Shown here: one piece after another, positions 6,956 through 42,228 of the stretch
Position numbering within the stretch: position 1 is the stretch's first letter
How the letters are laid out: each line of letters starts with the position of its first letter
Virus record (IMG/VR): IMGVR_UViG_3300049847_000287
Coordinates: 1-42,351 of that record
Source of the DNA: a virus
Length of the DNA: 42,351 nucleotides
Reading direction: 5' to 3' (one strand)
Position numbers and translations under genes: made by a program
The notes under the pieces: generated by a model
What the model saw: only the letters and a program-made list of their open reading frames with translations
Database searches by the model: none
Told to the model about the DNA's origin: nothing

Positions 6956-7300
6956 TCAGCAGCAACCGCCCGCGTTGATGCTGATGTTGCTTACCAAGCA
7001 CTGTCGCCCGATGTCAAGGTCAAACGTTGTGCAGCACTCATCTGCGATAAGCACGGATGCGCGCCAACGACCGCGTCGCATCTTGTGAAAGTCTTCTTCA
7101 ACAATGACGCACAGCGTTCCGTTGCTCAGCGACTCATGAATGCCGTACTCCGCAGACTCAGACGATCCTACGCGCTGAAACGTAACCCTGCTATTGATCA
7201 GGTCGACTGCCACCCGAGCGCTACAACCGCGCCCCACATTGAAGCAAATCCGCTCAGGATCATCAATGATTGAAATAGGACGATTGCTCACGGTTTCCAT
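6956..7300 (-). CDS. Small Cys-rich protein following the giant gene
   Basis: A 114-aa protein with eight cysteines (7%), including a CC pair in the middle (ADECCTTFD) and a C-terminal GGCC. The predicted ATG at 7300 lies inside the last codons of the giant gene (13-nt overlap); a GTG at 7291 that overlaps the giant stop as GTGA is an alternative start (111 aa). The protein has no signal peptide or membrane segment. Its family was not recognised; the unusual Cys content matches the other virion proteins of this phage, so a structural role, perhaps disulfide or metal stabilised, is inferred. Confidence 0.6.
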   Translation of the reverse strand: METVSNRPISIIDDPERICFNVGRGCSARVAVDLINSRVTFQRVGSSESAEYGIHESLSNGTLCVIVEEDFHKMRRGRWRASVLIADECCTTFDLDIGRQCLVSNISINAGGCC

Positions 7301-10300: not shown

Positions 10301-13300
10301 AAAATATTGCGTACAACGTATCCAGCTTTATCCTTGAAGACCGTCACCTCACCAGATCGTTTGTCACCGTTCCAGTAGTAGCTCGTGAATTTTCCTTCGG
10401 GCGTTTTGAAGTCATGACCAGCGTCAAGCTGTAATAGCTTGCGGATTTGACCTGCGCCCGAATTTACGTCATCGGCAGAGCGCCCGGTAGTGTTGCCGAC
10501 GACGGTTTTATCGTTCGCCATTTCGTTCATTGTAGGGCGATTGAGTGCCGTTTTGCCGCCTGGCGCTTTCCACCCCGCCCACACCGTATCGTTCCCCGTC
10601 AGCATGTGAACGCCATCGGTCAGGCCGTTGCGACGAATCCCCGCGACAAAGTCAGCGATCATATCGTCAGTCCAGACAATTTTGATGCCCACTGCGTCAG
10701 TCAGCTTGCCAAGCCATGAGCGGATCAGGTCAACCAGTTTTCCCCACCCCTTGAGGTCGCGTGCTTGACCGTTCCCAGCCATGTCAGCAAGCGCTTCTTC
10801 AATGGCTTCGTCCAGCCCAATTCCATGCCGCGTCATCTGCTCTTGAGTGAGTTCGCGCAACGTGGCGTTTGTCGCGTACATTTCACTCAGAAGTTGCTTC
10901 GCGTCGCTACCAATAGTGTTGGCGAGCCCGCGATGAAAGCCCTCATGAAGCACCGTAAAGAGGAATTCTTCCGGTGTGCGGATATTGTCCGTCACAAGCC
11001 AGACACCATTGGTATCGTTGAAGTACGCGCCCCTGATTCCGCCGTCCGGCGCGCGCGCAAGCACGGCTTTGCGCTCTGTCTCGGGCATATCGGCGACAGA
11101 GCGCACGACGTTGATGCCGGACATTCCGGCCTTGGTCAGTTGATCGGTAAGCGCTAACGCATCATCGTGCGTGAACGGTAAGCCTACGCCGTTTCCGTCT
11201 CCGCGACGATACAAGACTCGCTCTTTTCCGTCGGTGGCAAGTCCAAGTTGACGCACGACAGATAGCGTCCGAGCCAGAATTGATCGGGATGTTCCCCGCG
11301 CTCCAGACTCCTCTTCGCTCGCCCGCCGTACCACGGACTTGAGGATTCGATGTCGCGCAGCCGTCGAGCCATAATCAGGCGTCGCTCTGCTTCCTCGGGC
11401 GGAAGTGGAGGCTCCCACGTCACTACGCCCGTTTTCGGGTCTACCGATACCGAGGATAGCCGATAGGGTCGGGGAGATGGGAGAGGCAATGTCATCCCTC
11501 AAATTCTCCGGGATCGCCTGCAAAACGTCAATCATTTTGTGAACGTTCCCGACATGATCGCCGTAGACCCAATCCAGTGCTTTGATGCCAAGAGTTGGAT
11601 CACCCTGAACTTGTCGCGGGTGCGGCGCCAGATGCTCAGTCGTGCCGAACTTCAATGCGCTGTTCAGCATGTTCTCGGTACGGCGCACCATCGCTTTGTC
11701 GGACAGTCCATCCGGATCACCGATAAACAGATCACCGTTGTTGTGGGCATAGTTCGCGGCAACCGCGTAGATTTGGCTCCCCGACATGCCAGGGTTCATG
11801 CGCGACACATCAATCCACACGTCCCGCTGGTCAAGCGGCAATGATTCCGCATTTTTGCCGGGCAGTGTGGTGGACAATACCTTCAGGCTTCCCTGCTCGT
11901 CGCGCCCGTTGTCGTAGGAGCGCACGTCATTGCCGTAGGGGTTTGGGTCGCGCACCCACAGATTTGCCACGCCTGGCGCTCCGGGGCGGCTCAGCTCGTA
12001 AAGCTGCTCGGTGCCAAACTTGGATTTCTTCGTGACGACCAGTCCCGGCGCGATGACCTTTGCGATTTCAGTAAGGTCTTTGCTGTTTGATTTCGGGTAA
12101 ATGAACAGGTCGGGCTCGCTGCCGAACGCTTTGAGGGCATCGGCCTCCGAAAGAAATGCGCGCTGAAACATCGGCATGCCTTGTGACGCATATTCGCGCA
12201 TCTTGTCGGTGATGTCGAAGCCGGATTGCTTTAGGTTTTCTGCATTTTGCAGACGTACAGCCTCTACAAACGCCTCATCTGACGTATTGAATGTGCCGAT
12301 GACACCCTGACCAGCACGTCCGCGCAACTCGAATTTTCCATTCTTAGGCCAAACGCCATAGTCAACAATGCCAGAAACCACGCCGGTGGTTGAGTTGTAT
12401 TCGGCCTGTTTATTCAGGACAATTTGCACCACCTTCCCGCCGCCCAATCTCTTGAGCGCGTCATTAGCGACTTGCGGGACAATTTTGTCGTAGAAGGCTT
12501 TCATGCCTTCGCCGCCGACTTTGAGGTCGAGGCCGGATAGGGATCGACTGCCGGGTGTGGCGTCTTTTTTGCGTTGTGGAGCCCCTTCGCCGTTGACGAT
12601 TTTTTGCGTCATGTCTTTGCCGATAAGGTTTGTCAGCTCATCGGCGGTGATGTCATTCTTCACTACGACGGTGCGACCATCCTTCTCGGCGTCAATCGAG
12701 TAGCGTCCATCCGATTCTTTGACATAGTTCAGGCGGTCGATCTGCTTTGATAAATCATATCTTTCCGCCGACTGCTCGCCATTGACCATCGCAACACGGT
12801 CGAATCCGTTGTCTACGGCGTAGCGGATCATTCGCTTGAGAGCGAGGCTTACCCATGCTTCGGTTTTGCCGACGAAAGGGGCGTTGGGAACCCTTGGCGC
12901 CTGTACGCTGCCTTGATAGTGCTCCAGTTTTTCAAGTGCGCCACGCTCAGTATTTGAAGCCGTGACGAATGCGCCAGTGCTATCCAGCACATGCCACTGA
13001 CTGCCGACTTTTTTGATTGACAGCTTTGCCGTTTCTGGTGAGCCGAACCCCTTCTTCTTGCCCTCCTGCCCCCAATCCGACTGAATCTCTTCGATGAACA
13101 GTACTCGCTTGCCGTCTGCGTCGGTGCGCTCGTTGAATCGAATGTGGGCAAGGATGTTGGGTTGATCCCAGTGCGAGGATTTGAAATTCTTTTGAGACAG
13201 GTCGTCGCCGAATTTGCCGCGCAAAAACGCTACGGCTTCATCCTTTGTTTCAAATTGACCGAGCGCCTGCCGTCCGTCGTAGACAACATAGTATCCACCG

Positions 13301-16300
13301 GACATTGATATGAAATGCCCTTCTGCTGGCTGCGCCTTTGGTGGCAACGTCAACAACAGCTCGCGGTAGTTCTCTCCTCCCGGAAGTTGGTATTGACCGT
13401 ATTTGGTTCCGGCGTCCAAGCTGCTCTCGTGCGACAAATACGCGGCTCGCAATTGGTCGGCCAGCGCCTTTGTTGCGGCACTCATGGCGCGCTGTTTTTC
13501 CTCAGTTAAATCATCGCGCTCTGCATCAAAAGCAAAGTCGGTTGCTCTAAGCTGCTCGTAGGATTCGTTAGCCGTCAGATGATCAACGAGCGCTTTATTT
13601 GCAGTTTTCAGTGCCGCTTTTGTTGCGGCGCTACTTCCCAGCTCCGTTTCCGTAACCTTCACGCCATTCGCATCAAGGTACTGCTGAACCTGTTCGCGCG
13701 AGACTTTCCCGGCTTGTAGATCAAGCCAATCCGTGATGCCGCTCCACTGGATTTCCTCTTGCTTGACGCCGAGTTTTGCCGCGTTGGATTTAAGCCACGC
13801 TTGCCACTGGTCGGCGGGCACAGTTTTGAGCGGTGATTTGCCAACAGCATCAGAAAGCGTTGAACGCCACAAAGGAGTGCCACTTGATCGCGAGAACATC
13901 GGTTGCTGACCCGCAGCGGCCCCTACGTCCGCCGTTCGGTTGCTGCCAGTTAGAGTGAATCCTTCAGGCGACGGTGCGTTGTCCTGCGCTGATTTAGCCG
14001 CAACATCGCGGGCTTTCTTGGCTTCGTCGGCGCGTATCTGCGCTTCAGATTGACCGGTGAGGTCGAGGGTGGGCCTAACTACTTCTGGCTGGCCTTCGCG
14101 CGTCGCTGCTTCTCCAGTTGCACGATTCGCTTCGCCTGATCCGGCGACAACTTTTTGAGTTTGGCTATCGCGTCCTGCAACTGCTTCGACTGAGGCTCGG
14201 GTTTCATTTTTTGTCCTGCTGAAATCTATGGCATCGAGAATAGCAAGTTCATGGTCGGAAAGCTTGCCAACCGCATCAATCGCCTCACCAAATCCGGGCA
14301 TCCAGCCAAAGCCAGGCTCACCAGTTGCGCGATAGTGATCGTACTCCGCTTCCGAAATATCAATGCCGTGCGACTCATGAGCAACGTGTGTCGATCCATT
14401 TTGGAGTTCACGTTGGTACGAACGGGCATAGTCAACAAACCGTTGCTGCGATGTGGAAAGCGAAAGATTGGCGACGGCCCTATCTATCGCCACCTGCGCT
14501 TGCGCTTCACTAAGGGCACCACCCTGTTTCGGGCGGTTCGGCCAGAACTCAGATTTCGGAACCCACTTGCTACGCGTAACCGTCTCGCTGTTGACCGTGC
14601 CGTCAGCTCCGCGCGCGCGCTGCAACTGCCCGCCACGAATGGCCCAGCCAATTTCTTGCTTCAGGCCAGAGATGTCCACCGCCGTATCACCGCCATTTGG
14701 CGAGGGGATCGCTGCCGCTGATTTCTTGAGCGCCAGAAAATCGGCCTCACTCAATGGATTTCCAGCATCATCGACACGCGCACCCAGTGCCCAGCGTGGC
14801 GTCGTCGCATCGGTCGCGGGTTGTTGAGCGATCCGTTTGCGCGCCGCCTTGTATCGACCAGACAACTCGCCGCCAAGAATATCGGGGCGGTTCAAGCGGA
14901 TCAGCGACTCATCGACTTCATCGCGTGTGTCTCGTTGGAAGCCCGCTTTCGGCAATCTATCCGTCTGCCCGGATCGAATGTAATCTTCGTATGCCGCTGC
15001 ATGTTCGTTGGTCACCGCGTTGAATGCGGCCTTTGCATCGCCACCCGCGTTGACGCGGGCAACAACCTCTCGCGCCAGCCGGTCTGTGGCTTCGCGCGCT
15101 GTTTCCGCTGGGACGTAATTCGTCGCAGCTATTGGGCCGAACGCTACTGGCCCTTGCTGCGAAACTCCTGTGCCAACTGCTCCATCTCCAGCACTACTTC
15201 GCGCAAAGTTTGATCTTGTGGCATCAGGGCTGACAACTGGCGCACCTTGTACAGTTGCGCTTCCATCCGTGCCGATATTTTCGGCGTTGGCTTCTCCGGT
15301 AGTACGCCCGTCTGCCGAAACGCCTGTACCTGTCTCGGGTCGGTTGGTAATGTCTCCGTGATTCGCTGTTGCGGCGTCAGTGGCGGTCGCGACATTGGCG
15401 GGGCCGACTGTTTGAGTCTCGCTGCCAATTGCTGGAGCTGCTGTTGATTCATCGGGCACCTCAGCGCGTTGTTGAATGTATTGCGTGATTTCGTTCGCCA
15501 GATCGGGGGGCGCGGTAACGATCAGGCGCTCAAACGCCACGGGATCGTTTTGCGCCACCGCCCAATCAGCGGCTCGATGTTCTTTCGCCCACGCCGAAAA
15601 ATTCGGCGCACCCGTTGCAAAGTCATTTTCTGGAATATCGGTAACCGTCGACGCGGCTACTGCTGTCGTCGATTCGGTAGCCGTTGCTGGCGATTGAGCG
15701 GCAGCAGATGCCCGGTCAATTTCTTTCAACTGCCGCTTTGCCGCAACGCCTTGCGCCACGTGAGCGATGCCCCCTGGTGCGGCGGCGAGAAAGCCAGCCT
15801 TCACACCAGCCTCAACGACATTTTGATACGGATCAACCGTTGCGCCCCCTGATGCGGCACCAGTGTTACCGAGATACGTTTCCGTCATTTCCTGCGGAAT
15901 TTCGGTCGCCACCTCTTTCCCAGCGCCGGTCGCGATCCCTTTGATACCTACGTCGCGTGCCTGCTTGCGCAGCGCTGCAATAGTTTGCTCGCGCCCTGCA
16001 TTGGCAAGCGCTTGCTCAACCGAGCCAAACTTGCCGACCGCAGCGCCCATCGCGCCGCCGATAGCGATCTTGCCGGGATTCTCCGTGTAGGATTGCAGCT
16101 TGACCGCCAACGCTTCCTTGGCCGTCTTTTCGTCGATTCCTGACGCTCGCATCGCGGCGTAACTTGGATCGGTCATCAGATCAGCGTCCGGCGTGTTGTT
16201 CACGGTCTCATAAATGTTGCCCTTGACCGCACCAACGCCCATCGCCGTTGATGCGCCGATCACACCAATCGTCCCGCCAATTGCAGCGGGGGCAATGGCA

Positions 16301-16959
16301 AGCACGTTGCCAGCCGCTTCGCCCAAATTCTCCAGTGGGTTGCGAATGATTTGGCGCGCGGCTAATCCAGCGCGATCAAGAATTGACGGACTAGCACCAA
16401 GCGCCCTCCGCTCTTCATCCTGCTTCAGCAGCTCGTCTTTGTAGTAGCTGGTCTGGTTATCCTCTGCGTTTTTTTGCTTCTCGCGAAAAAATTTGCTTGC
16501 TGGATTGTCAGCGCCAAAAATGTCGGTTGCCGAGGTCAGCGCGCCCGCCGCACCTTTTGCCATGTTCTCATTGAAATCGAGTAACGCACCGCCGAATCCG
16601 CGTGTCGGATTTTGCTTGCGGAAAGGGATCGTCTCTTTGTCGGTCTGATCGATGTAACTCTGGCGCTCGGATGCGCTTGGAATCCACGTCCGCACGTACG
16701 GCTCAACCCAATCCGTTTTCCATCGCTTGTACATGTCCTGCTGAGCCTCATAGCTCATGGCATGCACGTTCATACGATCCGCAAAATCAACCCACGTCAT
16801 ATCAATCGGCGGGATCGTTTGTGGAGCGACTGACGGCGCTACTACTGGCTCTGGTTTTTCGGCGCTCAGGCTGGCAAGGTAGTCCGTGCCGCGTTTTGCA
16901 CCATTGAGCGGATCGCCGTACAGCGCTTGCTTGAACGCATCAAGACTGAATTCAGGCAT
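7288..16959 (-). CDS. Giant polyvalent internal virion protein (3223 aa) with metallopeptidase-like, GNAT-like and LPD38-like regions
   Basis: The largest gene, 23% of the window. Regions by approximate residue: 200-290, Gly/Ala-rich hydrophobic stretches that could insert in a membrane; 1185-1515, a conserved domain of phage polyvalent proteins with FIEEIQSDWGQEGKKKGF and later LKVGGEGMKAFYDKI; ~2004-2008, HEGFH, a zincin-type HExxH motif with a following EEALAD that could give the third zinc ligand near 2055; ~2180-2285, a GNAT-like fold with RNIFIPDSAQKQGIGSAIY; 2670-3060, a C-terminal helical region resembling LPD38. Low-complexity linkers lie between. Such proteins are thought to be packaged and ejected with the genome, acting in the host cell. 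No methyltransferase or helicase motifs of DarB type were seen. The start overlaps the transglycosylase stop by 8 nt. Confidence 0.88.
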   Translation of the reverse strand: MPEFSLDAFKQALYGDPLNGAKRGTDYLASLSAEKPEPVVAPSVAPQTIPPIDMTWVDFADRMNVHAMSYEAQQDMYKRWKTDWVEPYVRTWIPSASERQSYIDQTDKETIPFRKQNPTRGFGGALLDFNENMAKGAAGALTSATDIFGADNPASKFFREKQKNAEDNQTSYYKDELLKQDEERRALGASPSILDRAGLAARQIIRNPLENLGEAAGNVLAIAPAAIGGTIGVIGASTAMGVGAVKGNIYETVNNTPDADLMTDPSYAAMRASGIDEKTAKEALAVKLQSYTENPGKIAIGGAMGAAVGKFGSVEQALANAGREQTIAALRKQARDVGIKGIATGAGKEVATEIPQEMTETYLGNTGAASGGATVDPYQNVVEAGVKAGFLAAAPGGIAHVAQGVAAKRQLKEIDRASAAAQSPATATESTTAVAASTVTDIPENDFATGAPNFSAWAKEHRAADWAVAQNDPVAFERLIVTAPPDLANEITQYIQQRAEVPDESTAAPAIGSETQTVGPANVATATDAATANHGDITNRPETGTGVSADGRTTGEANAENIGTDGSATVQGAPVVSPDATRSNFARSSAGDGAVGTGVSQQGPVAFGPIAATNYVPAETAREATDRLAREVVARVNAGGDAKAAFNAVTNEHAAAYEDYIRSGQTDRLPKAGFQRDTRDEVDESLIRLNRPDILGGELSGRYKAARKRIAQQPATDATTPRWALGARVDDAGNPLSEADFLALKKSAAAIPSPNGGDTAVDISGLKQEIGWAIRGGQLQRARGADGTVNSETVTRSKWVPKSEFWPNRPKQGGALSEAQAQVAIDRAVANLSLSTSQQRFVDYARSYQRELQNGSTHVAHESHGIDISEAEYDHYRATGEPGFGWMPGFGEAIDAVGKLSDHELAILDAIDFSRTKNETRASVEAVAGRDSQTQKVVAGSGEANRATGEAATREGQPEVVRPTLDLTGQSEAQIRADEAKKARDVAAKSAQDNAPSPEGFTLTGSNRTADVGAAAGQQPMFSRSSGTPLWRSTLSDAVGKSPLKTVPADQWQAWLKSNAAKLGVKQEEIQWSGITDWLDLQAGKVSREQVQQYLDANGVKVTETELGSSAATKAALKTANKALVDHLTANESYEQLRATDFAFDAERDDLTEEKQRAMSAATKALADQLRAAYLSHESSLDAGTKYGQYQLPGGENYRELLLTLPPKAQPAEGHFISMSGGYYVVYDGRQALGQFETKDEAVAFLRGKFGDDLSQKNFKSSHWDQPNILAHIRFNERTDADGKRVLFIEEIQSDWGQEGKKKGFGSPETAKLSIKKVGSQWHVLDSTGAFVTASNTERGALEKLEHYQGSVQAPRVPNAPFVGKTEAWVSLALKRMIRYAVDNGFDRVAMVNGEQSAERYDLSKQIDRLNYVKESDGRYSIDAEKDGRTVVVKNDITADELTNLIGKDMTQKIVNGEGAPQRKKDATPGSRSLSGLDLKVGGEGMKAFYDKIVPQVANDALKRLGGGKVVQIVLNKQAEYNSTTGVVSGIVDYGVWPKNGKFELRGRAGQGVIGTFNTSDEAFVEAVRLQNAENLKQSGFDITDKMREYASQGMPMFQRAFLSEADALKAFGSEPDLFIYPKSNSKDLTEIAKVIAPGLVVTKKSKFGTEQLYELSRPGAPGVANLWVRDPNPYGNDVRSYDNGRDEQGSLKVLSTTLPGKNAESLPLDQRDVWIDVSRMNPGMSGSQIYAVAANYAHNNGDLFIGDPDGLSDKAMVRRTENMLNSALKFGTTEHLAPHPRQVQGDPTLGIKALDWVYGDHVGNVHKMIDVLQAIPENLRDDIASPISPTLSAILGIGRPENGRSDVGASTSARGSRATPDYGSTAARHRILKSVVRRASEEESGARGTSRSILARTLSVVRQLGLATDGKERVLYRRGDGNGVGLPFTHDDALALTDQLTKAGMSGINVVRSVADMPETERKAVLARAPDGGIRGAYFNDTNGVWLVTDNIRTPEEFLFTVLHEGFHRGLANTIGSDAKQLLSEMYATNATLRELTQEQMTRHGIGLDEAIEEALADMAGNGQARDLKGWGKLVDLIRSWLGKLTDAVGIKIVWTDDMIADFVAGIRRNGLTDGVHMLTGNDTVWAGWKAPGGKTALNRPTMNEMANDKTVVGNTTGRSADDVNSGAGQIRKLLQLDAGHDFKTPEGKFTSYYWNGDKRSGEVTVFKDKAGYVVRNIFIPDSAQKQGIGSAIYEWVNQQSIEGTGNPLRSTQPRTRNGESVLEIAAPARALWESLVKSGKASKTDNGTFAFKQPNEPTTSQNGDVTSSSNGSVAFSRNSDAGSALQKAINAAAPNRAVELLPAKADVDYKWALQEGLVDYQAPVARMLQKVYGSFLDVPLWQSLKTYLTKRDALHEDFARGLRKKMEANANAIADVTGMDVREAASAVGEYAKAKHVPDANAQLRAKGLNTLAAGLTDQQAAAVAIAIEKTVSQKLLEEGRQILIAANREGLQMMVDSRLMTAQQQADLLAKYPNYVPLNLADTEIDPFTEFVRTDLFSNSMNAQVAKVMKGYGVGSDSVAENGYVNTLAKRAAIHARIASQDFKLAALAMSRLPQGSQHVESERITSPGQQLDPRGMAVRDPITNDWYSVRFKDQSVQDAIYNKGIEQPDGMLRAMSIPTRLISKGVTQWIMAFAPINMMRDVQAKAVQVRARRYKDAQGVAIDSKKLGYDLLKYSSSPELWKAAWHLAFKVPPANPSPTYLSLKQAVSDGALSTWGDFLNKSKEDAMKELRKTAGFRRIPNVVTDAVEEWNTWFDTISSFASYQALRAQGVEPKAAAFHTLDLMNFRNKGKKTAMVRALYTFSNATIQDASNLARDLHTRQGWVDFLALTALGALFYGMAKSFGGEPPENEKILGNLVDQRGTNEAERNIPICWAKDACLKLPIGFGKAQLAWSTAVNLMRLESGRYSPGEALGESAKSWIKAFAPTGYSEVPISKDPALFFMSTLAPTVVKPAVNVIANKTAFGAPLAKPNAEGKFRSENAKTSTEPLWVDTAKSLRQMTGLDAAPEVLRELFMGFPVVAGPVAETIKAATNNKAERGLPEDLRDQWRFLAPLGLNRLLGGDSRYLESVYWERMADANELSKRLNVEIPPGPRPRRGQADRLYAERVNKLNASDQDKALLISYREERGRLREYSDAKKEMAETIKGKQPDEAVKVALKFSDEARESMITFLKESQWKP
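11184..11495 (-). CDS. Nested ORF in the +1 frame of the giant gene (103 aa)
   Basis: This 103-aa frame lies wholly inside the giant gene, shifted +1. It reads like an ordinary soluble protein: Pro-rich start, a beta pair (VSVDPKTGVVTWEPP), a charged helix (PPEEAERRLIMARRLRDIE) and a tail with CVNLDLPPTEKSES. The main frame over the same bases (about residues 1821-1925) reads as Ser/Arg/Gly-rich low complexity, the reverse of what a random shadow gives. A GGAG lies 10 nt and a GAGGG immediately before the ATG, so the ribosome site is only fair. Function unknown; it may be an overprinted gene or a relic of an inserted gene. Confidence 0.42.
   Translation of the reverse strand: MTLPLPSPRPYRLSSVSVDPKTGVVTWEPPLPPEEAERRLIMARRLRDIESSSPWYGGRAKRSLERGEHPDQFWLGRYLSCVNLDLPPTEKSESCIVAETETA
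14079..14207 (-). CDS. Nested small ORF in the +1 frame of the giant gene (42 aa)
   Basis: This is a 42-aa, highly charged peptide (Lys, Gln, Glu, Arg and Leu rich) with a helical core: QLQDAIAKLKKLSPDQAKRI followed by VQLEKQRRAKASQK. AGGA lies 6 nt upstream of the ATG. The covering main-frame residues (about 917-960) are an Ala/Gly/Thr/Glu linker. It is in the same +1 frame as the other two nested ORFs. Its size and basic helix resemble small phage proteins that bind nucleic acid or other proteins, but no family was recognised and it could be chance. Confidence 0.4.
   Translation of the reverse strand: MKPEPQSKQLQDAIAKLKKLSPDQAKRIVQLEKQRRAKASQK
15144..15452 (-). CDS. Nested ORF in the +1 frame of the giant gene (102 aa)
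   Basis: This frame starts at ATG 15452 with a near-ideal Shine-Dalgarno (GAGGTG 5 nt upstream) inside the giant gene. The 102-aa product has a Gln-rich amphipathic start (NQQQLQQLAARLKQ), a Pro-rich middle (PPLTPQQRITETLPTDPRQV) and a C-terminal helix (REVVLEMEQLAQEFRSKGQ), with normal Leu, Glu, Lys and Gln content. The main frame over these bases (about residues 502-605) is a featureless Ala/Gly/Thr/Asn linker. Together with two similar ORFs in the same +1 frame this suggests real overprinting. Function unknown; scaffold-like or regulatory roles are only guesses. Confidence 0.5.
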   Translation of the reverse strand: MNQQQLQQLAARLKQSAPPMSRPPLTPQQRITETLPTDPRQVQAFRQTGVLPEKPTPKISARMEAQLYKVRQLSALMPQDQTLREVVLEMEQLAQEFRSKGQ

Positions 16960-19910: not shown

Positions 19911-20371
19911 GACTTCACCATCGTGACAGTGCCAGCAACCCATCCTTTGCGAGCAAAGTATGAATGCAGGTCGCTGCCGGAATCAACGGCAGTGGCTATT
20001 TTTTTGACCCCCAGGGCCTCCATCACCATGACCCCAAAGTCCATGAGCTTCGGGAACTCGCCGATACCGCGGCTTTCTTTCCTCAGAAAAACGGAATAGA
20101 GAACTGCATCAAGTCGCCGCGGCCTCCAAAGATTGGGAGACACAATCCACAACGCGTATCCAGTAAGCTCTGCACCGTCTCGCGCAGAAATTATCTTCAC
20201 ACTACCGTCTCGCCACATGTTGGCAATCTGGTCAATGTCTGGCTGAAACGCCTCTCCGCTTTTGCCCAAGGTTTCAAGCCACTGAGCCTGCGCAAAGTCA
20301 ATGATCCGCTTTACCGTAGCACGGCAAGCGTCTGTTTCTTCGTAGTGTTCAACGGCGAATTTGAGGCTCAC
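19907..20371 (-). CDS. GNAT-family acetyltransferase
   Basis: A 154-aa protein with the GNAT layout: a beta strand with GYALWIVSPN, the acceptor-side strand LDAVLYSVFLRKESRGIG containing an R-x-x-G-x-G-like acetyl-CoA loop (RGIGEF), a following helix, and a C-terminal YFARKGWVAG strand-turn typical of the fold. It starts at GTG 20371 overlapping the previous stop (GTGA). An acetyltransferase within the virion gene cluster is found in other podoviruses of this type, but the substrate is unknown; it could modify a virion protein or a host target. A predicted late promoter lies 60-90 nt upstream, inside the previous gene. Confidence 0.82.
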   Translation of the reverse strand: MSLKFAVEHYEETDACRATVKRIIDFAQAQWLETLGKSGEAFQPDIDQIANMWRDGSVKIISARDGAELTGYALWIVSPNLWRPRRLDAVLYSVFLRKESRGIGEFPKLMDFGVMVMEALGVKKIATAVDSGSDLHSYFARKGWVAGTVTMVKS

Positions 20372-35027: not shown

Positions 35028-35231
35028 CTAGCCTCCTAAAAAGCTGGCCTTCACATGAACCGTCGCCGTTTTCATGACCCGCCAGCCTTTCGTGTCCGTG
35101 GTGCTAACTTCGCCGCCACGATTCCGGTGTTTCAGACACTGCCCACAGTCCCGGTATCCAGATTGCGCGCTGTGGTTAGTTGCAGGCCCCCACGCAATCG
35201 CAATCTCATCAAGCTGCCATGCGGAACTCAC
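35028..35231 (-). CDS. Small protein overlapping the primase end (67 aa)
   Basis: A 67-aa frame from GTG 35231, overlapping the primase end by 23 nt, with a CxxC (CGQC) and basic residues (CLKHRNRGG) and a short C-terminal helix. The last codons contain AGGAGG just before the stop, but no start codon follows at the right distance. This is weaker than its neighbours: the long overlap and poor ribosome site leave open that it is spurious. Confidence 0.45.
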   Translation of the reverse strand: MSSAWQLDEIAIAWGPATNHSAQSGYRDCGQCLKHRNRGGEVSTTDTKGWRVMKTATVHVKASFLGG

Positions 35232-36069
35232 TTCGCAATCGCATCATCGACTCGCACACGGCGAAGATTCCCGCCTTGACGTGCCAGTCGTTCGCGTCAT
35301 GTCCAATTTGCGGACTCATCACCCACGGTAAATCTGTCGACAGCGCTGCGCGTTCACCAGCACCGCTCTTGTCGTTGTCCGCAAACACGTAGCGCGTACC
35401 CTTGAGCAGCGGCGCAACGTACACAAGGTTGCTATCCGAGAAGCACGTGTACACATTGGCATCGAGTCGCAACTGCGCTACAGCCGCTTTGACCGATAGC
35501 GCCGTGGCGTAACCCTCAACCAACCAGCTTTCGCGCGCCGTGGGTCGCCCTAGCCTCAGCACCGCCCCTTTAGCCCGCATTCCGTAGGTCATCTTCTTCT
35601 GCCATGACTCGCCATCCCATGAAATGCGTTGAGTACCTCGCAAGGCATTGGTCTGCCAGTCGCGCATCGGCACGTGCAGCGTGTCATCAGCATCAACCAT
35701 TCCCAGCTCGTGAATGAAGCCCTTCATCTTGAGGTAGCCATGCTCCTGCTGTTTGCAGGCGCGCAGTTGAATGTCAGCTTCAGTCGCAGCGCGGCGATGA
35801 CCACGCTCGCGAGCCTCTTCTGCCTCGCGCCGTTTCATGGCCCAAGCGCGTTTCTCGCTGTCGCTCCATGGCTTCGCGTTGTCGTCTTTGTACCAATACC
35901 ATTGGGCGCTTCCATCCCATGCCATCACGCCGCCACGAGCGCCGTCCCAAAGGTATGCGCCATTGCTGCTTTTCGGATGTAGCGTTGTTGCACACCGTTG
36001 AATCCTGTCACTGGATTTCAACGACTTGATGAGCACGCCATTGGCTTCGGCAAATTGAGTGAATGTCAT
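35209..36069 (-). CDS. Toprim-domain DNA primase
   Basis: Start ATG 36069 shares one base with the upstream stop (TGATG). The 286-aa protein has an N-terminal ~110-residue part that is not clear, then a Toprim-like core: SWLVEGYATALSVKAA with the catalytic glutamate E185, and RYVFADNDKSGAGERAA with D231 and D233 (D-x-D), followed by HDANDWH. These are the metal-binding motifs of DnaG/P4-type primases. No zinc-finger domain or ATPase is fused, so it probably works with the adjacent DEAH helicase in primer synthesis. It is longer than a bare Toprim fragment. Confidence 0.85.
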   Translation of the reverse strand: MTFTQFAEANGVLIKSLKSSDRIQRCATTLHPKSSNGAYLWDGARGGVMAWDGSAQWYWYKDDNAKPWSDSEKRAWAMKRREAEEARERGHRRAATEADIQLRACKQQEHGYLKMKGFIHELGMVDADDTLHVPMRDWQTNALRGTQRISWDGESWQKKMTYGMRAKGAVLRLGRPTARESWLVEGYATALSVKAAVAQLRLDANVYTCFSDSNLVYVAPLLKGTRYVFADNDKSGAGERAALSTDLPWVMSPQIGHDANDWHVKAGIFAVCESMMRLRSEFRMAA

Positions 36070-36299
36070 CACTGGTCGCCACCCAAAAGGTAGACGAAGC
36101 CATCTACGTCTCTCCGGTCTTCGACTGATTGATATGGCAGTGCTAACCGCCACTGACCGTCACCATCGCAACCGCCCAGCGCAGCATATTCAGCGCCGTG
36201 CTTTGCCAGCATGCACTTGTCGCCGACCTGTTCAAAGCGCGAGCGACACTGCGCCGCAAGCTTCCTAGCGACGGCCTCTGCGTTTGTTTGTGCGTTCAT
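36069..36299 (-). CDS. Small protein between helicase and primase (76 aa)
   Basis: A 76-aa protein starting at ATG 36299 (ATGA overlap with the helicase stop), stop sharing a base with the primase ATG. An N-terminal helix (NAEAVARKLAAQCRSRF), Cys in CMLAKHG and LGGCDGDG, then a beta strand with QWRLALPYQS. It could be a small zinc-binding accessory of the primase, but this is a guess from position and Cys/His content. Confidence 0.6.
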   Translation of the reverse strand: MNAQTNAEAVARKLAAQCRSRFEQVGDKCMLAKHGAEYAALGGCDGDGQWRLALPYQSVEDRRDVDGFVYLLGGDQ

Positions 36300-37846
36300 G
36301 CGGCACGCCCCATTCGACCCTTAACAAACCGGATGTTGTTCGAACGAATCTTGTTGAGGGTGTTTGCGGTCACTGTGACGTTCGGCGTGTTGTCCAGCGC
36401 CCATCCGTGCGGGGGCCAATCACCAACAATGTCTCTGTAAAGGTGCGCCGCCCGCCCTTGCTGCTTTTCTGGCGATGAGTGCCCACGCGCGTAGGTGCAA
36501 AGTTGTTCCCAAAGATGTCTCTGGTCATCAGCAAGCTTTTTCTTGCCAAGCATGATTTCCTTCATCACGCCCGCCTGTGCTTCGATCATTGAGGATTTGA
36601 CGATTTCAAACCCGCATGCCACACAGCGCTTGAAGAATGGCTTGATTCCGCACTTCGGGCAGCCTTTTGACTCTTTCTCTTCATCGTCACGGCGGATTGT
36701 CTTGTCGAGCTTTTCCCCCATGTCAAGTTCGCTCAGGCCGTTGAAGTAGATGTCCTCGAAATCCTCTCGAAACCGGATGATGTTCCCGCTATGGTCAAGC
36801 AAAATGCAATCGACCTTGCCGGTGTCGGGAGAACTTCGAAGCCCCCTACCCCACATCTGGATTGCGGTTGACAGACTTTTGCGCAATGGCCTGCAATCAA
36901 CTACGCAACCAACGTCCTTCACGTCAAATCCCTTGGCAATGGCCTCCACGCTTATCAAAATGCGAATCCGCGAATCAGTCTTGCGATACTCGTCGAGCAG
37001 CGCTTTGCGCTCATGCAGCGATGTTTCGCCGGTGAATGTCGCGGCCATGATCCCAGCGTCGTTGAACTGTTGGCACAGCTCTGCGCAGTAGGCAATAGTC
37101 GGGCCGAACACAATGGTCTTGCGGCCCTCTCCGAACTTTATCCACTCACTCACCACATCGCCAATAATTGCGCTACCGCGCTCCTCTGCGGCGCGATCTG
37201 TCCACTCTCCGCCAGAGGTTTCTGCGCCGGTCATGTCGGCTGTTGTGCAGCTAAATACACGCATCGGAACAAGAACTCCCTGCTGCGTCAGTTCATGCAT
37301 CGTTGCCGCATTGACTAGATTCGTAAACAGCTTGCCCAGGCCAGTAGAAAACGGCGTAGCAGAAAGGCCGATTACCTTGGCGCGGCACGTTTTAATGTGC
37401 TCTACCCATGCCGAATACATCGTATGGGCCTCATCAATGATGAGCACATCCGTATCAGGCCACTCCCGTCGAGCAAGTGTCTGGATACTGGCTATCTGAA
37501 ATGGTTGTCGCGGGTTGTACAGTGGATGGTTTGACTGGATCACGCCATGCGCCGACAGCCCATAACTAAAAGCCACATCAGATGTTTGGTTAATTAGCGT
37601 GGTGCGATCACACACAAACATCGCTCGCCGATCCCTTGACAGCGCCTCATGAGCAACACGCATCCCTAAATACGTTTTCCCGGAGCCGGTAGGACTCATG
37701 AGCACTTGGCATTTATGTCCCTGGCGGACGCCTTGTCGCAGCGCCTCATGCGCCGTCGTCTGGAATTCGCGCGGCGGCGGGAATGTCGCACTACCATAGT
37801 GCGCCACATCCTCAAACGCATCCATTTGTTCAGCGTCGGATAGCAT
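36296..37846 (-). CDS. DEAH-box helicase (SF2, phage replication)
   Basis: A 516-aa SF2 helicase. Motif I SPTGSGKT (51-58), II DEAH (138-141), III SAT (162-164), a helicase C-domain with VEAIAKGFDVKDVGCVVD (300-317) and motif VI QMWGRGLR (330-337). A four-Cys zinc site follows (CPKCGIKPFF, then CVACGFE; C396, C399, C408, C411). It probably unwinds DNA ahead of the primase encoded downstream and may replace a DnaB-type helicase. It shares one base with the ParB-like stop (TGATG). Confidence 0.92.
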   Translation of the reverse strand: MLSDAEQMDAFEDVAHYGSATFPPPREFQTTAHEALRQGVRQGHKCQVLMSPTGSGKTYLGMRVAHEALSRDRRAMFVCDRTTLINQTSDVAFSYGLSAHGVIQSNHPLYNPRQPFQIASIQTLARREWPDTDVLIIDEAHTMYSAWVEHIKTCRAKVIGLSATPFSTGLGKLFTNLVNAATMHELTQQGVLVPMRVFSCTTADMTGAETSGGEWTDRAAEERGSAIIGDVVSEWIKFGEGRKTIVFGPTIAYCAELCQQFNDAGIMAATFTGETSLHERKALLDEYRKTDSRIRILISVEAIAKGFDVKDVGCVVDCRPLRKSLSTAIQMWGRGLRSSPDTGKVDCILLDHSGNIIRFREDFEDIYFNGLSELDMGEKLDKTIRRDDEEKESKGCPKCGIKPFFKRCVACGFEIVKSSMIEAQAGVMKEIMLGKKKLADDQRHLWEQLCTYARGHSSPEKQQGRAAHLYRDIVGDWPPHGWALDNTPNVTVTANTLNKIRSNNIRFVKGRMGRAA

Positions 37847-38691
37847 CAGAACGCGCTCTCTGCCTCAATAGTTTTCAACTGTTTTTCTGCTCGCTGAAAC
37901 TTGTTCATCCAAGATTTTGCCTGCGCGAGAGCGGCATTTTTCTCATTCATGAGGCCGTTGTTTCGCTCGGTCAATACGCGAACCTGCTCCCGGAATCGCT
38001 TCGCTTCGGCAAGCGCGGCTGCGACTTGGTCATTTGCATCAAACACGCGCGCCATGCTCGCGTTATCGTCATTGCATTCCTGCAAATTTTTCGCTAGCTC
38101 TTGAATCTGCTCTTCGAGTTGGGCGATACGCGCGTCACGCTCGTCCGACCCGGCAAGCGCAATAGGGGGCGCTTCCGGTTTTGCCGCTTTCGGCTTCGCG
38201 TCACGGATGACCGTGGACGCCGAAACAGTACCCGCTTTAATTTCTGCGGCGCGCTCTGGCGATTTGGCTAATGCCGTCTTGACCTTGTCAATTGTTCCGG
38301 TTGATACGTGGGCGCGTTTCGCGATGTCGGCGACTGTTAATTCCGTATTTGGTACGGAATTCTTTTTTGGTCGGCCAGCACCAGTTCGCCACTCGTACAT
38401 TTTGAGCACAGCCATAGCGCGCTGTGACGCCGTCAGACTGCGCCGCGTATGGCGATCATTAACCAGCGCTTCAGCCGCCTCAATGGTGCCGCCAAACGTC
38501 ACGAATGACCCCGCAACGCCCGCCGACTCGCACGCTTGGTAGCGATGCCATCCATCAAGGATTTGACCGTCCATGAGTGTTATGGGCTCGCGCAGCCCGT
38601 TGCATCCGATGGAGCACACCAGCGCATCAAAGTCGTCGCGCGCCATGTCAGGCCATGCAGCGCTGAGCGGGTGACGTTCGTATGTTTTCAT
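37846..38691 (-). CDS. ParB-like nuclease-domain protein with coiled coil
   Basis: A 281-aa protein. Residues ~1-90 form a ParB/RepB-type domain: LREPITLMDGQILDGWHRYQ with the G-x-H-R box, and IEAAEALVNDRHTRRSLTAS. A helix-turn-helix follows (LTVADIAKRAHVSTGTIDKV, about 120-140), then a long coiled coil (about 185-275). Such proteins are used as DNA-binding or regulatory factors by phages, seldom for partition. It overlaps RusA (ATGA) and the helicase. A role in origin or late-switch control is possible; no ParA partner is present, so plasmid-like partition is unlikely. Confidence 0.82.
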   Translation of the reverse strand: MKTYERHPLSAAWPDMARDDFDALVCSIGCNGLREPITLMDGQILDGWHRYQACESAGVAGSFVTFGGTIEAAEALVNDRHTRRSLTASQRAMAVLKMYEWRTGAGRPKKNSVPNTELTVADIAKRAHVSTGTIDKVKTALAKSPERAAEIKAGTVSASTVIRDAKPKAAKPEAPPIALAGSDERDARIAQLEEQIQELAKNLQECNDDNASMARVFDANDQVAAALAEAKRFREQVRVLTERNNGLMNEKNAALAQAKSWMNKFQRAEKQLKTIEAESAF

Positions 38692-39164: not shown

Positions 39165-39433
39165 GTTGCGCGCGCCGCTTTCTCTTTGACGTATGGCTTA
39201 TTAAATGCATCAACGATTGCGCGGTACAAGTTAGCCATATCGTCGTCCAACTCGTTGACATCAAATCCCGGAAGCGCGTGAATCGCCCGAAGAATCGCGC
39301 GACGCGATACTGGCCTCGTCTTTGGCGCGTCGTTGAGTACGTCGCGCAACGTGTCCAATACACCTTGACGCCAGACTGTTATCCGCCCATCTTTCGCGGC
39401 GCTCATGTGTTTAGAAAAATCGGTGGCTTTCAT
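39161..39433 (-). CDS. Unknown 90-aa early protein
   Basis: A 90-aa helical protein (KATDFSKHMSAAKDGRITVW, then a basic helix with VSRRAILRAIHALPGF). The C-terminal end is lysine/arginine-rich (NKPYVKEKAARAT). Acidic (VNELDDDMANLYRAI) and basic segments alternate. It overlaps the small upstream ORF by ATGA and RusA by ATGA. Not recognised; probably an accessory early factor. Confidence 0.65.
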   Translation of the reverse strand: MKATDFSKHMSAAKDGRITVWRQGVLDTLRDVLNDAPKTRPVSRRAILRAIHALPGFDVNELDDDMANLYRAIVDAFNKPYVKEKAARAT

Positions 39434-39609
39434 TGCTGACGTACCTCAAGATGAGAGTGGGTCACCCTGGCAAGGCGCACAAAAATGACCGCAGCATCTT
39501 TGGTCGCATAGGACTGGGAAAGCGGCAAAACCTTCGGTGGCTTACCGGCCTTTTTTGCTTTTTCTGCAACGGCAATTGCACAGCCGTAAACGACGAATCC
39601 AGACTTCAT
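39430..39609 (-). CDS. Small coupled ORF of 59 aa
   Basis: Starts at ATG 39609 overlapping the stop of the ribbon-helix-helix gene (ATGA) and ends at TGA 39430, overlapping the next ATG at 39433 (ATGA). Product: a hydrophobic start (KSGFVVYGCAIAVAE), then AEKAKKAGKPPKVLPLSQSY and a beta-type end. It has no recognised family. The two coupled junctions argue strongly for expression. It may be a small exported or regulatory protein, since the N-terminus is mildly hydrophobic. Confidence 0.7.
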   Translation of the reverse strand: MKSGFVVYGCAIAVAEKAKKAGKPPKVLPLSQSYATKDAAVIFVRLARVTHSHLEVRQQ

Positions 39610-39899
39610 TTGGCAATCCCGCCTGTATCAATCCCGAGATTCCCCCGGTTTAATCCCGCGATTCCAAGTGTTGCGGCCACGTGTGCCATGGTGCGAGACT
39701 GATATTCATCCGGCCCATAGGCCGAAGCCAACAGGATCGTTCGCATGTACTCGGACAGCGCCATTCCCACGGTTGCCGCCTTCTCTTCGAGGATTTCTTT
39801 CGCCTCGTACGGAATCATCGTTTCGATTCGCTCGGAGTTCTTTCCGAATGCAGCGATGCCCGCTGATTTGGCGGTGCGAGACAGTGCAATGTCGGTCAT
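39606..39899 (-). CDS. Ribbon-helix-helix DNA-binding protein
   Basis: ATG 39899 is preceded by GGAG 6-7 nt upstream and overlaps the small ORF's stop (ATGA), giving 97 aa. Residues ~23-60 have the RHH pattern: a basic-hydrophobic strand (ERIETMIPYEAKEI), then helix (EEKAATVGMALSEY) and a second helix (MRTILLASA). Arc/CopG-like regulators of this size control early genes or plasmid-like functions. It is the third gene of the Cro operon, so it is expected to be expressed early. Confidence 0.78.
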   Translation of the reverse strand: MTDIALSRTAKSAGIAAFGKNSERIETMIPYEAKEILEEKAATVGMALSEYMRTILLASAYGPDEYQSRTMAHVAATLGIAGLNRGNLGIDTGGIAK

Positions 39900-40060
39900 G
39901 TCCGACTCCAAGAAAATGCCGACGCCCGGTAAAGAGCGTCGGCCAAAACACGTGCCGAAAGGAGGTAAAGCGGCACGATTGATCGCCCGAGCGGGTGCAG
40001 CAGGCAAACATTGGAGCCAAGGTCGCGTGAGTTGCGACCTTTGCATTGATCGGTCTTCAT
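39896..40060 (-). CDS. Small coupled ORF of 54 aa carrying an inverted repeat
   Basis: A 54-aa frame from ATG 40060 to TGA 39896. The ATG overlaps the Cro-like stop (ATGA) and its stop overlaps the RHH ATG (ATGA). The sequence begins basic (KTDQCKGRNSRD), has a hydrophobic run (RSIVPLYLLSARVLADALYR) and ends in ASAFSWSRT. The last third contains an 8-bp inverted repeat that forms a hairpin in the mRNA. It may be a leader-type peptide that couples translation or a bona fide small protein; no family is claimed. Confidence 0.68.
   Translation of the reverse strand: MKTDQCKGRNSRDLGSNVCLLHPLGRSIVPLYLLSARVLADALYRASAFSWSRT
39918..39943 (-). promoter_or_regulatory. mRNA hairpin within the 54-aa ORF
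   Basis: On the transcript strand GCCGACGC and GCGTCGGC pair perfectly (8 bp) around a 10-nt loop, ending about 10 nt before the GGAG of the RHH gene. ATTTTCTT follows, a poor U-run, so partial termination or a translation-control structure is more likely than a full terminator. Ribosomes translating the 54-aa ORF would melt it, a typical coupling arrangement. Confidence 0.6.
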
Positions 40061-40266
40061 GTCGTGGCGCTCGCTTCTGCGTCCTTGGACTCAACCATCA
40101 AATGCGTCAGAAAAATATGTGGGTTATCTACCTTCACCTTCGCTGGGATTCCGCGCTCTATCCAGTTGTGGACGCGTTGCGTTCCCCCATCGCTTTCATA
40201 GCCAAGCAATTCGGCCACCTTCGCGGGGCCGCCCAATGCTTTGATGATTTCTTCGTCGGTTGGCAT
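40057..40266 (-). CDS. Cro-like / YdaS-type HTH regulator
   Basis: The 69-aa product is a single helix-turn-helix protein: EEIIKALGGPAKVAELLGYE, TQRVHNWIERGIPAKVKVDN, the YdaS/Cro pattern with a wing-like IPAK. It is the first gene of the leftward operon and diverges from the repressor gene, with the palindromic operator between them. It would repress the repressor promoter and commit to lytic growth, as lambda Cro does. No Shine-Dalgarno can be seen before ATG 40266. Confidence 0.85.
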   Translation of the reverse strand: MPTDEEIIKALGGPAKVAELLGYESDGGTQRVHNWIERGIPAKVKVDNPHIFLTHLMVESKDAEASATT

Positions 40267-40296
40267 GGAAACGTCGCAATTGAGGAATTAGCCGAT

Positions 40297-40325
40297 ATTA
40301 AACACCATGTTTACTTTTAATGCAA
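40297..40325 (-). promoter_or_regulatory. Leftward early promoter with palindromic repressor operator (OR-like)
   Basis: On the minus strand TTGCAT (-35, 40325-40320), 17-nt spacer and TTTAAT (-10, 40302-40297) form a good sigma70 promoter for the Cro-like operon. The perfect 15-bp palindrome TAAACA-N3-TGTTTA (40299-40313) overlaps the -10 and spacer, so a bound repressor would block RNA polymerase. A degenerate second half-site (CGTTTA, near 40347-40352) lies to the right. The same operator occurs at 42212-42226. Confidence 0.8.
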
Positions 40326-40373
40326 CTCATCACGTTTAACACGCAGCGTTTAGTTGGACACACAATTCACCGG

Positions 40374-41132
40374 ATGACAGATTCGCAACACCCTTCAATG
40401 CGACGGCTTTTAGAAGCAGCGGTTGCAGCTCGCGTTATTGATGATCCAGATGCGCACGGCAGCATCGCCGCCCTTGCTCGCAAATTGAACAAGTCGGATC
40501 AAGTGCTACGCAATTGGTCTGCTCGTGGAGTTTCGAACGAAGGAGCGCTGGAGGCGGCTGGAATACTCCACTCGGATGCGAATTGGGTGCTAAACGGGAT
40601 TAAGCCACCTGACCAGCGCATATTCCCGCCCAGCATCATTGCCGGAGCAGTTTCCGTTGCGCAATTCAGCGTTCAAGAGCCGCGCAGCAAATATCTAGAT
40701 GACGTGGTGATCACGCAATACGAGACCGGCGGCAAGATGGGGCATGGCTTGGTGCTGCGTGATCAGCCAGGCGTCATAGAAAACTGGAAAGTTTCGATCG
40801 AATGGGCGAGAGCCAACATTCCACCCTGCACCGGTTATTCCAACCTGCGCATCGTCACCGGCTACGGCGATAGCAACAAGGGGCTTTATAACTCTGGTGA
40901 TCCGCTGATCGTTGACGTTGGAATTACCGCGGTAGACCGTGACGCCGTGTTCTTTTTTCGCGTCGGGGACGAGGGATACATCAAACAGCTACAGCGCATA
41001 CCTTCGTCAGACGGGCTGCGCATTAAAGTAAAGTCGTTCAACGAGCGCTACGACCCGTGGTGGATTGAACCCAGCATGGATTTCGAGGTTTTTGGATTGG
41101 TGTTGAAAGTATGGCAAGGACAAAACTTATGA
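40374..41132 (+). CDS. S24-type phage repressor (CI-like)
   Basis: Residues (numbered from ATG 40320) ~48-82 form a helix-turn-helix (SIAALARKLNKSDQVLRNWS); ~165-265 an S24 LexA/CI-like domain with catalytic serine in VTGYGDSNKG (S185) and lysine in YIKQLQR (K222). The usual M after GDS is N here. No Ala-Gly cleavage site lies at the expected distance from the serine. ATG 40374 (252 aa) is preferred because ATG 40320 would begin in the -35 of the opposite promoter; neither has a clear ribosome site. It is the first gene of the prophage operon and the probable ligand of the palindromic operators. Confidence 0.88.
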   Translation: MTDSQHPSMRRLLEAAVAARVIDDPDAHGSIAALARKLNKSDQVLRNWSARGVSNEGALEAAGILHSDANWVLNGIKPPDQRIFPPSIIAGAVSVAQFSVQEPRSKYLDDVVITQYETGGKMGHGLVLRDQPGVIENWKVSIEWARANIPPCTGYSNLRIVTGYGDSNKGLYNSGDPLIVDVGITAVDRDAVFFFRVGDEGYIKQLQRIPSSDGLRIKVKSFNERYDPWWIEPSMDFEVFGLVLKVWQGQNL

Positions 41133-41162
41133 TCCACCACCAACGTCGCAGCCAAATAGCAC

Positions 41163-41657
41163 ATGCTTGATGCCGCAACCACGATCATTGCAATGCTGAC
41201 CATGGCGGCAATCGTCATCGGCGGGTTTCGTTGTCTCGATTTGTTTACCGATTACTCAACCAAAAGCGGCGGCGCGGAATTTCGCCAGAATATGGGTCGC
41301 GCTGCATGGGCTGTGGGTTGCGCGCTTGTCGGCGCAATGCTGCTGTATTACTTGATGGAGGAACGTAACCAACGGCGCGCCGTTGAATATCGAAACGCTC
41401 GCGCCGAAAAACTGGCTGAGCCTCCAACAATCCGCAAGTTTGGCGGCTACGTTTGCGGAGCAAGTTGCAAGGCGCATCGCGCAGGCTGGCTTGCCGCACG
41501 AGATAGCAGAACGACCAACGTCCGAGACTGCGACACCTATGCTGAAGGTGATCGACGGCATGCGGAGGGCTGCTACGTCTGGGTGCGCGACAGGGACGTA
41601 GTGCTGGAGCCGCCTGATCTTTCCGATGATAGCGACGGGCGCTATCGTTCTCGTTAG
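41163..41657 (+). CDS. Membrane protein with Cys/His tail domain (prophage operon)
   Basis: A 164-aa protein with two N-terminal membrane segments (about 5-26, TTIIAMLTMAAIVIGGF; about 48-66, AWAVGCALVGAMLLYYLM) and a C-terminal Cys-rich domain: GGYVCGASCKAHRAGWLAAR, RDCDTYAEGD and AEGCYVW. Cys, His and Trp spacing resembles a family of small surface domains (GY-x-C-x2-C-x2-H-x2-G-W), as in prophage-encoded envelope proteins. It follows the repressor with a 30-nt gap. It may act in superinfection exclusion or lysogenic conversion; this is inference. Confidence 0.7.
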   Translation: MLDAATTIIAMLTMAAIVIGGFRCLDLFTDYSTKSGGAEFRQNMGRAAWAVGCALVGAMLLYYLMEERNQRRAVEYRNARAEKLAEPPTIRKFGGYVCGASCKAHRAGWLAARDSRTTNVRDCDTYAEGDRRHAEGCYVWVRDRDVVLEPPDLSDDSDGRYRSR

Positions 41658-42135: not shown

Positions 42136-42156
42136 ACCCGCTTCGGCGGGTTTTTT
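42136..42156 (+). terminator. Intrinsic terminator of the repressor operon
   Basis: ACCCGC-TTCG-GCGGGT followed by TTTTTT forms a perfect stem with a stable TTCG loop and U-run, 25 nt after the last plus-strand stop. It ends the repressor operon just before the rightward promoter. Confidence 0.93.
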
Positions 42157-42187: not shown

Positions 42188-42228
42188 TAAACAAAACGTT
42201 TGACATTAAGTTAAACATAGTGTTTAAT
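42188..42228 (+). promoter_or_regulatory. Rightward promoter with two repressor operators (OL-like)
   Basis: TTGACA (42200-42205), a 17-nt spacer and TTTAAT (42223-42228) form a strong sigma70 promoter. A perfect TAAACA-N3-TGTTTA palindrome (42212-42226) overlaps the spacer and -10, and a near-perfect copy (TAAACA-N3-CGTTTG, 42188-42202) overlaps the -35. A further TAAACG half-site lies at 42176-42181. Seventeen bases around the -10 match the Cro promoter except one. It fires rightward, out of the window, presumably into an early operon that is not included. Confidence 0.85.

Follow-up and report, generated by a model that had tools for sequence, protein, structure and literature searches.

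The locus downstream of the Cro-like gene in this window, which spans an entire IMG/VR virus contig (42,351 bases), raises the question whether a short open reading frame that exactly fills the gap between two early genes is read as a protein or works as RNA. The frame (p54, 54 aa) was regarded in the initial annotation as a translated element that controls the expression of the next gene, which codes for a probable ribbon-helix-helix (RHH) protein. Two of the observations behind this view are confirmed: the frame shares a 4-nt ATGA with the Cro-like gene and another one with the RHH gene, and an 8-bp inverted repeat (hairpin 3) lies 6 nt ahead of the RHH Shine-Dalgarno sequence TTGGAG (39906-39911). 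The description was incomplete since the same frame contains two more perfect hairpins, hairpins 1 and 2 (Table 1).

Table 1 Features of the immunity region and of the segment between the Cro-like and the RHH gene
Feature	Positions	Strand	Description
PL-like promoter	42200-42228	+	TTGACA-17-TTTAAT, -10 overlapping operator TAAACATAGTGTTTA
CI-like repressor	40320-41132	+	S24 peptidase domain; divergent from early operon
PR promoter (inferred)	40297-40325	-	TTGCAT-17-TTTAAT; operator TAAACATGGTGTTTA at 40299-40313
Cro-like gene	40057-40266	-	phrog_8008, E 6e-20; YdaS and carph-isopro matches sub-threshold
ORF p54	39896-40060	-	54 aa, ATG start; between Cro-like and RHH genes
Hairpin 1	40019-40041	-	AAGGTCGC-7-GCGACCTT, 8 bp, loop 7; begins 15 nt after cro stop
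GGCTCCAA	40011-40018	-	predicted pairing with RHH Shine-Dalgarno, probability ~0.48
Weaker hairpin	39983-40007	-	includes G-U pairs; located between hairpins 1 and 2; prediction only
Hairpin 2	39951-39977	-	CGTGCCG-13-CGGCACG, 7 bp, loop 13; followed by TGTTTTGG
Hairpin 3	39918-39943	-	GCCGACGC-10-GCGTCGGC, 8-bp inverted repeat; followed by ATTTTCTTGG
boxA-like CGCTCTTTA	39930-39938	-	exact consensus match, partly in hairpin 3 loop
RHH ribosome site TTGGAGTC	39904-39911	-	predicted partner of GGCTCCAA
Probable RHH gene	39606-39899	-	97 aa; sub-threshold family matches

The early operon is encoded on the minus strand in the order Cro-like gene, 54-aa ORF, RHH gene, two small genes, RusA resolvase, ParB-like gene and helicase. 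For YdaS, one of the families to which the Cro-like protein shows some likeness, a role as the Cro protein of Rac prophage has been argued (PMC5917428). The helicase shares 68% identity with its counterpart in Acidovorax phage AP1 (OM049504), and the order of the ParB-like, helicase and primase-like genes (35209-38691, minus strand) matches that phage, whose CI is related to the CI of the contig (48% over 174 aa). The promoter near the right-hand contig end carries the same kind of operator as PR and is taken as PL; it is preceded by a strong terminator on the plus strand (42137-42150), and the contig end cuts off the PL operon. The RHH protein has sub-threshold matches to NikA-like, MbpA, MobA, TraJ and RelB families, most of them over residues 31-58, and no homologue was found in IMG/VR, genomes, phage records, plasmids or solved structures; a structure prediction was set aside as support for the RHH fold (mean pLDDT 58). 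A pattern search for CI homologues found none in IMG/VR or genomes, and for the portal protein 14 distant phage records were found, and none in IMG/VR. Almost one quarter of the contig is taken up by a 3223-aa reading frame (7288-16959, minus strand).

The concentration of hairpins in the 54-aa frame is exceptional for this DNA. Three of the 32 perfect hairpins of the whole contig (arms of at least 7 nt, loops of 3-14 nt) are located inside the frame, and every other 165-nt span that begins with a hairpin holds fewer than three. Dinucleotide shuffling of the ORF gave no hairpin in 1811 of 2000 cases, one in 183, two in six and three in none. The fold of 39880-40060 has a z of -4.2, with none of 200 shuffles equally stable, and when the minus strand was tiled (24 shuffles each) only 4 of 768 segments showed a z as low, one of which overlaps the ORF. 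A structured RNA upstream of the RHH gene is thus well supported. In Rfam, positions 39400-40500 gave matches up to E 5 that were all far below the gathering score, and the similarity of the segment to other DNA is short only (phages up to 35 nt, best E 7; plasmids up to 30 nt, best E 0.5). The stretch 39986-40005 (minus strand) matches a phage locus of our collection (L041) exactly over 20 nt and another one (L036) nearly over 19 nt, which looks like chance. The sequence GACATGA is present at both ends of the segment (39896-39902 and 40057-40063, minus strand), that is at the RHH start and at the cro stop; this repetition may point to the origin of the segment or be due to chance. A duplication of the RHH start as the source of the ORF start is not claimed, as the alignment has a p of 0.006 with the shared ATGA and of 0.17 without it.

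The reading of the frame as a protein is weak. Each of the four junctions from the RHH gene to the ParB-like gene is likewise a 4-nt overlap, so that the exact fit of the ORF matches the style of the operon, and we have retained translation as a rival explanation for this reason. The coupling is nevertheless less telling than it appears, because 10 of the 41 junctions counted in the contig are 4-nt overlaps and because 41% of 5000 shuffles with both ATGAs kept fixed leave the frame open. Codon usage was scored after training on 38 genes of the contig, the reference pieces of 53 codons being taken from these same genes rather than from a held-out set. The ORF scored -0.064 per codon; true gene pieces have a mean of 0.117 (3 of 216 as low), and open wrong-frame pieces one of -0.117, with 31% of 377 above the ORF. 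Coding-like values were found for the Cro-like gene (0.143), the RHH gene (0.196) and the two genes that follow (0.072 and 0.078). The codon usage of the ORF looks non-coding-like and falls among the wrong frames. Homologues of the 54-aa product were found neither in IMG/VR, where an exact 8-residue seed was required, nor, with an E cutoff of 1, in phage records, and there was no match to a protein family; a search for this peptide upstream of other RHH genes, by which the initial annotation could be checked, likewise returned nothing. By eye, the 25 nt preceding the ATG contain no clear ribosome site. A structure model of the product is of low confidence (mean pLDDT 61), which is weak evidence given the single-sequence input. 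The 54-aa frame is more likely a structured RNA stretch than a protein gene, and most likely a by-product of it, or at most a leader that is read by ribosomes leaving cro. Of the proposed translated control element, the structured RNA is therefore retained, and its translation is what the codon score, the missing homologues and the absence of the segment from the three immunity relatives examined most closely (see below) speak against.

We propose, tentatively and with slightly less than even confidence, that the 157 nt between the Cro-like and the RHH gene are a lineage-specific attenuator of the early PR transcript that would act like the tR1 region of phage lambda. We infer from the sequence that some transcription may end at hairpin 3 after RNA polymerase has passed cro, perhaps aided by a C-rich stretch and by hairpins 1 and 2, and that the RHH, RusA, ParB-like and helicase genes would hence be made at a lower level or later. 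The same fold could also hide the RHH ribosome site through its pairing with GGCUCCAA. Control of the RHH gene alone, as assumed initially, is probably too limited a role, because a signal that stops transcription at this position would affect the whole early operon.

Our confidence in an attenuator is limited by the borderline terminator score. On a scale in the manner of d'Aubenton Carafa (score d, usual threshold 0) hairpin 3 reaches -4.4, which is below the threshold but ranks third in the contig over both strands and first on the minus strand. It is outscored by the clear terminator at 42137-42150 (d 23.4) and by a terminator-like site at 19970-19996 (d 8.8) that falls within a gene of the other strand. 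The U-run behind hairpin 3 is interrupted (AUUUUCUU). A simpler terminator scan of positions 39400-41300 detected four sites, hairpin 3 included, compared to 2.9 in shuffles, and the region is therefore not enriched by that measure. The C-rich stretch has an excess of C over G of 14 in the 78 nt from 40034, and the early operon has one other place of this kind; an excess of this kind is seen at Rho sites, and it is modest here, as 11 of 256 segments reach that level. A scan for a promoter of an antisense RNA on the plus strand showed no promoter-like site, a weak result since the scan misses the inferred PR as well.

Support for a stop signal at this place comes from what follows cro in related phages. 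A scan with the operator pattern gave at least 120 stretches, and the operator TAAACATNGTGTTTAAT is common to many phage contigs (IMG/VR loci L059-L178, among the matches listed), in most of which the word TTGAC or TTGC precedes the -10 sequence by about 17 nt. Among the matches listed, 14 of 80 have one operator site per strand, which is the arrangement that PL and PR on either side of a repressor would give, and judged from these sequences the contigs with TAAACATNGTGTTTAAT appear to form a broad immunity family. Scan matches, other cro loci and the contig together gave at least 169 operator sites, of which 62 are followed by a cro homologue (E up to 0.05). These were reduced to 46 groups; addition of 21 further cro loci gave 67, of which 64 remained after a similarity cut and 63 were long enough for a post-cro terminator test. 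In 10 of these 63 loci, terminator-like hairpins (d > -10) were present between -25 and +175 relative to the cro stop, compared to 7 of 291 sense segments further downstream (3/59, 1/58, 1/58, 1/58 and 1/58 by step) and to 3 of 63 in the same interval of the opposite strand. The enrichment within this Cro family has a Fisher p of 0.0001 (0.0004 without the contig itself; 0.04 against the opposite strand). It persists at higher thresholds: 9 of 63 loci have such a hairpin at d > -5, and at d > 0, where the hairpin of the contig drops out, there are 8 of 63 compared to 3 of 291 downstream and 2 of 63 on the opposite strand. Three of the ten loci (L024, L025 and L034) have closely similar hairpins and are thus not independent. 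The post-cro hairpins of these three and of L168 share the identical tail TTTATTTGGCC.

The form that the putative signal takes in the contig is its own. Strong folding was rejected as a general post-cro trait (mean z -0.31 for the 46 groups, -0.34 for 124 controls, p 0.65). One group (L076) has a post-cro z below that of the contig (-4.30 vs -3.79), and no other group among the 46 has three hairpins in the 200 nt past cro. The longer PR word was found in L179 and L124 only, and the CI of L066 scores best among the compared loci (47% over 245 aa); all three lack the segment. In L179 a 59-aa gene overlaps the cro stop, in L124 a 132-aa frame begins 3 nt past it, and in L066 an 86-aa frame overlaps cro by ATGA. 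The 157 nt are therefore extra in the lineage of the contig relative to these three, either gained here or lost there. The 59-aa protein of L179 has a weak likeness to the RHH protein of the contig (27% over 45 aa, E 0.003 in one comparison), and the post-cro protein of L066 has no resemblance to it. An RHH assignment is not claimed for the post-cro genes of L066 and L179 (no family match), L082 (RelB-like model only, E 0.018) or L036 (unrelated model only, E 0.045). In short, the element is of an ordinary type, but its local form is unusual.

Among the alternatives, we consider a translated leader, as suggested in the initial annotation, unlikely. Ribosomes that finish cro would restart on the ORF and unfold both the hairpins and a masked RHH ribosome site, so that RHH output would be tied to cro translation. 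The ATGA at both ends, within an operon of similar overlaps, speaks for such a leader, and so does the predicted fold: the mean unpaired probability of the RHH ribosome site is 0.165 in the folded context and would rise to 0.60 if the RNA were cut directly after GGCUCCAA, just past hairpin 1. The flanking bases of the masking pair have a rival partner in the end of cro (~0.37). Shuffled segments, however, mask the site almost equally on average (0.222; 4 of 150 as closed). On a common measure of ribosome-site opening, the RHH site (0.227) is less closed than two other sites of the operon, those of cro (0.125) and p59 (0.111). Masking of the RHH ribosome site is therefore possible in this model but not distinctive. 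The leader is further opposed by the non-coding codon score, by the lack of a clear ribosome site and of a homologue, by the ease with which the frame stays open in shuffles, and by the three relatives that do without the segment.

Modification of RNA polymerase at this place, which would enable it to pass later terminators as at a nut or put site, appears rather less probable. The segment holds the boxA-like word CGCTCTTTA, which agrees exactly with the boxA consensus. It is the sole exact match in the contig, with 0.23 expected; 22 of 100 contig shuffles hold one too, and within hairpin 3 the word would be partly paired. The word is not a rule among relatives: YGCTCTTWA was absent from the sense strand downstream of cro in L002-L047, and only 2 of 45 other groups carried a shorter 8-mer at a distance of up to 350 nt from cro. 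The position of the hairpins, 249-372 nt from the inferred PR start, is compatible with that of putR of HK022, described at about 270 nt from its start (PMC9378689), and nutR and the rut site of tR1 are described as overlapping in lambdoid phages (PMC3526286). Against this, the PL leader shows over its first 122 nt neither similarity to the segment nor an unusual structure, and no N-like gene was identified in the contig, which ends before the PL operon does.

An ordinary small phage gene that holds the hairpins by accident is improbable: it would explain why the gap is filled exactly and by the type of overlap used along the operon, but the codon score, three hairpins in a single ORF and, as weak evidence, the low-confidence single-sequence model speak against it. 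We regard as highly speculative a compact gate made of a single RNA and placed between cro and the regulator that follows: a terminator loop would show boxA to host Nus factors, the fold would hide the next ribosome site, and Nus factors and the ribosomes leaving cro would jointly set the reading of the early operon. An operator at the DNA level, bound by the RHH protein or another regulator, is very improbable: inverted repeats directly ahead of the gene of a probable DNA-binding protein would suit it, but the arms of the three repeats differ in sequence and are therefore unlike an operator set for one protein.

The attenuator that we favour can be compared to several known systems; in titles and the opening parts of abstracts, we met no description of this element, which is not meant to imply that it is unpublished. 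Leader-ORF attenuators such as mgtP, as far as described in PMC3641672, also have a short ORF over stem-loops upstream of coding genes, but here no run of a single regulatory codon is apparent by eye, codon usage is not coding-like and no conservation was found. Ribosome termination structures have been proposed to limit re-initiation past a stop codon (PMC7518266), and hairpin 1 has the corresponding position directly after the cro stop. Termination-reinitiation has been described for ATGA overlaps (PMC6728339), of the kind that this probably untranslated ORF has at both ends. Non-lambdoid coliphages with three nut sites have been described (PMC11893012). The putL and putR sites of HK022 resemble each other and have about 70 nt and two stem-loops each (PMC9378689); the segment shares with putR a structured RNA at a like distance from PR, but about 125 nt of it are taken up by three perfect stem-loops, and no similar copy was seen at PL, where the 122 nt of leader are dissimilar and not unusually structured. 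A close parallel is the nutR-tR1 region of lambda and H-19B, with which the segment shares the place after cro on the PR transcript, a boxA-like word, a C-rich stretch and a likely stop signal. It differs by its three strong hairpins, in that no matching nut copy was seen in the PL leader over the 122 nt before the contig ends, and by the mode of termination, which is Rho-dependent at tR1 according to PMC3526286 and would be intrinsic at hairpin 3. If this reading is right, a neat ATGA-to-ATGA frame in a phage operon may be a folded RNA rather than a gene, and the lambda-like layout of cro, stop signal and rest of the early operon would extend to the broad group of phages that share TAAACATNGTGTTTAAT.
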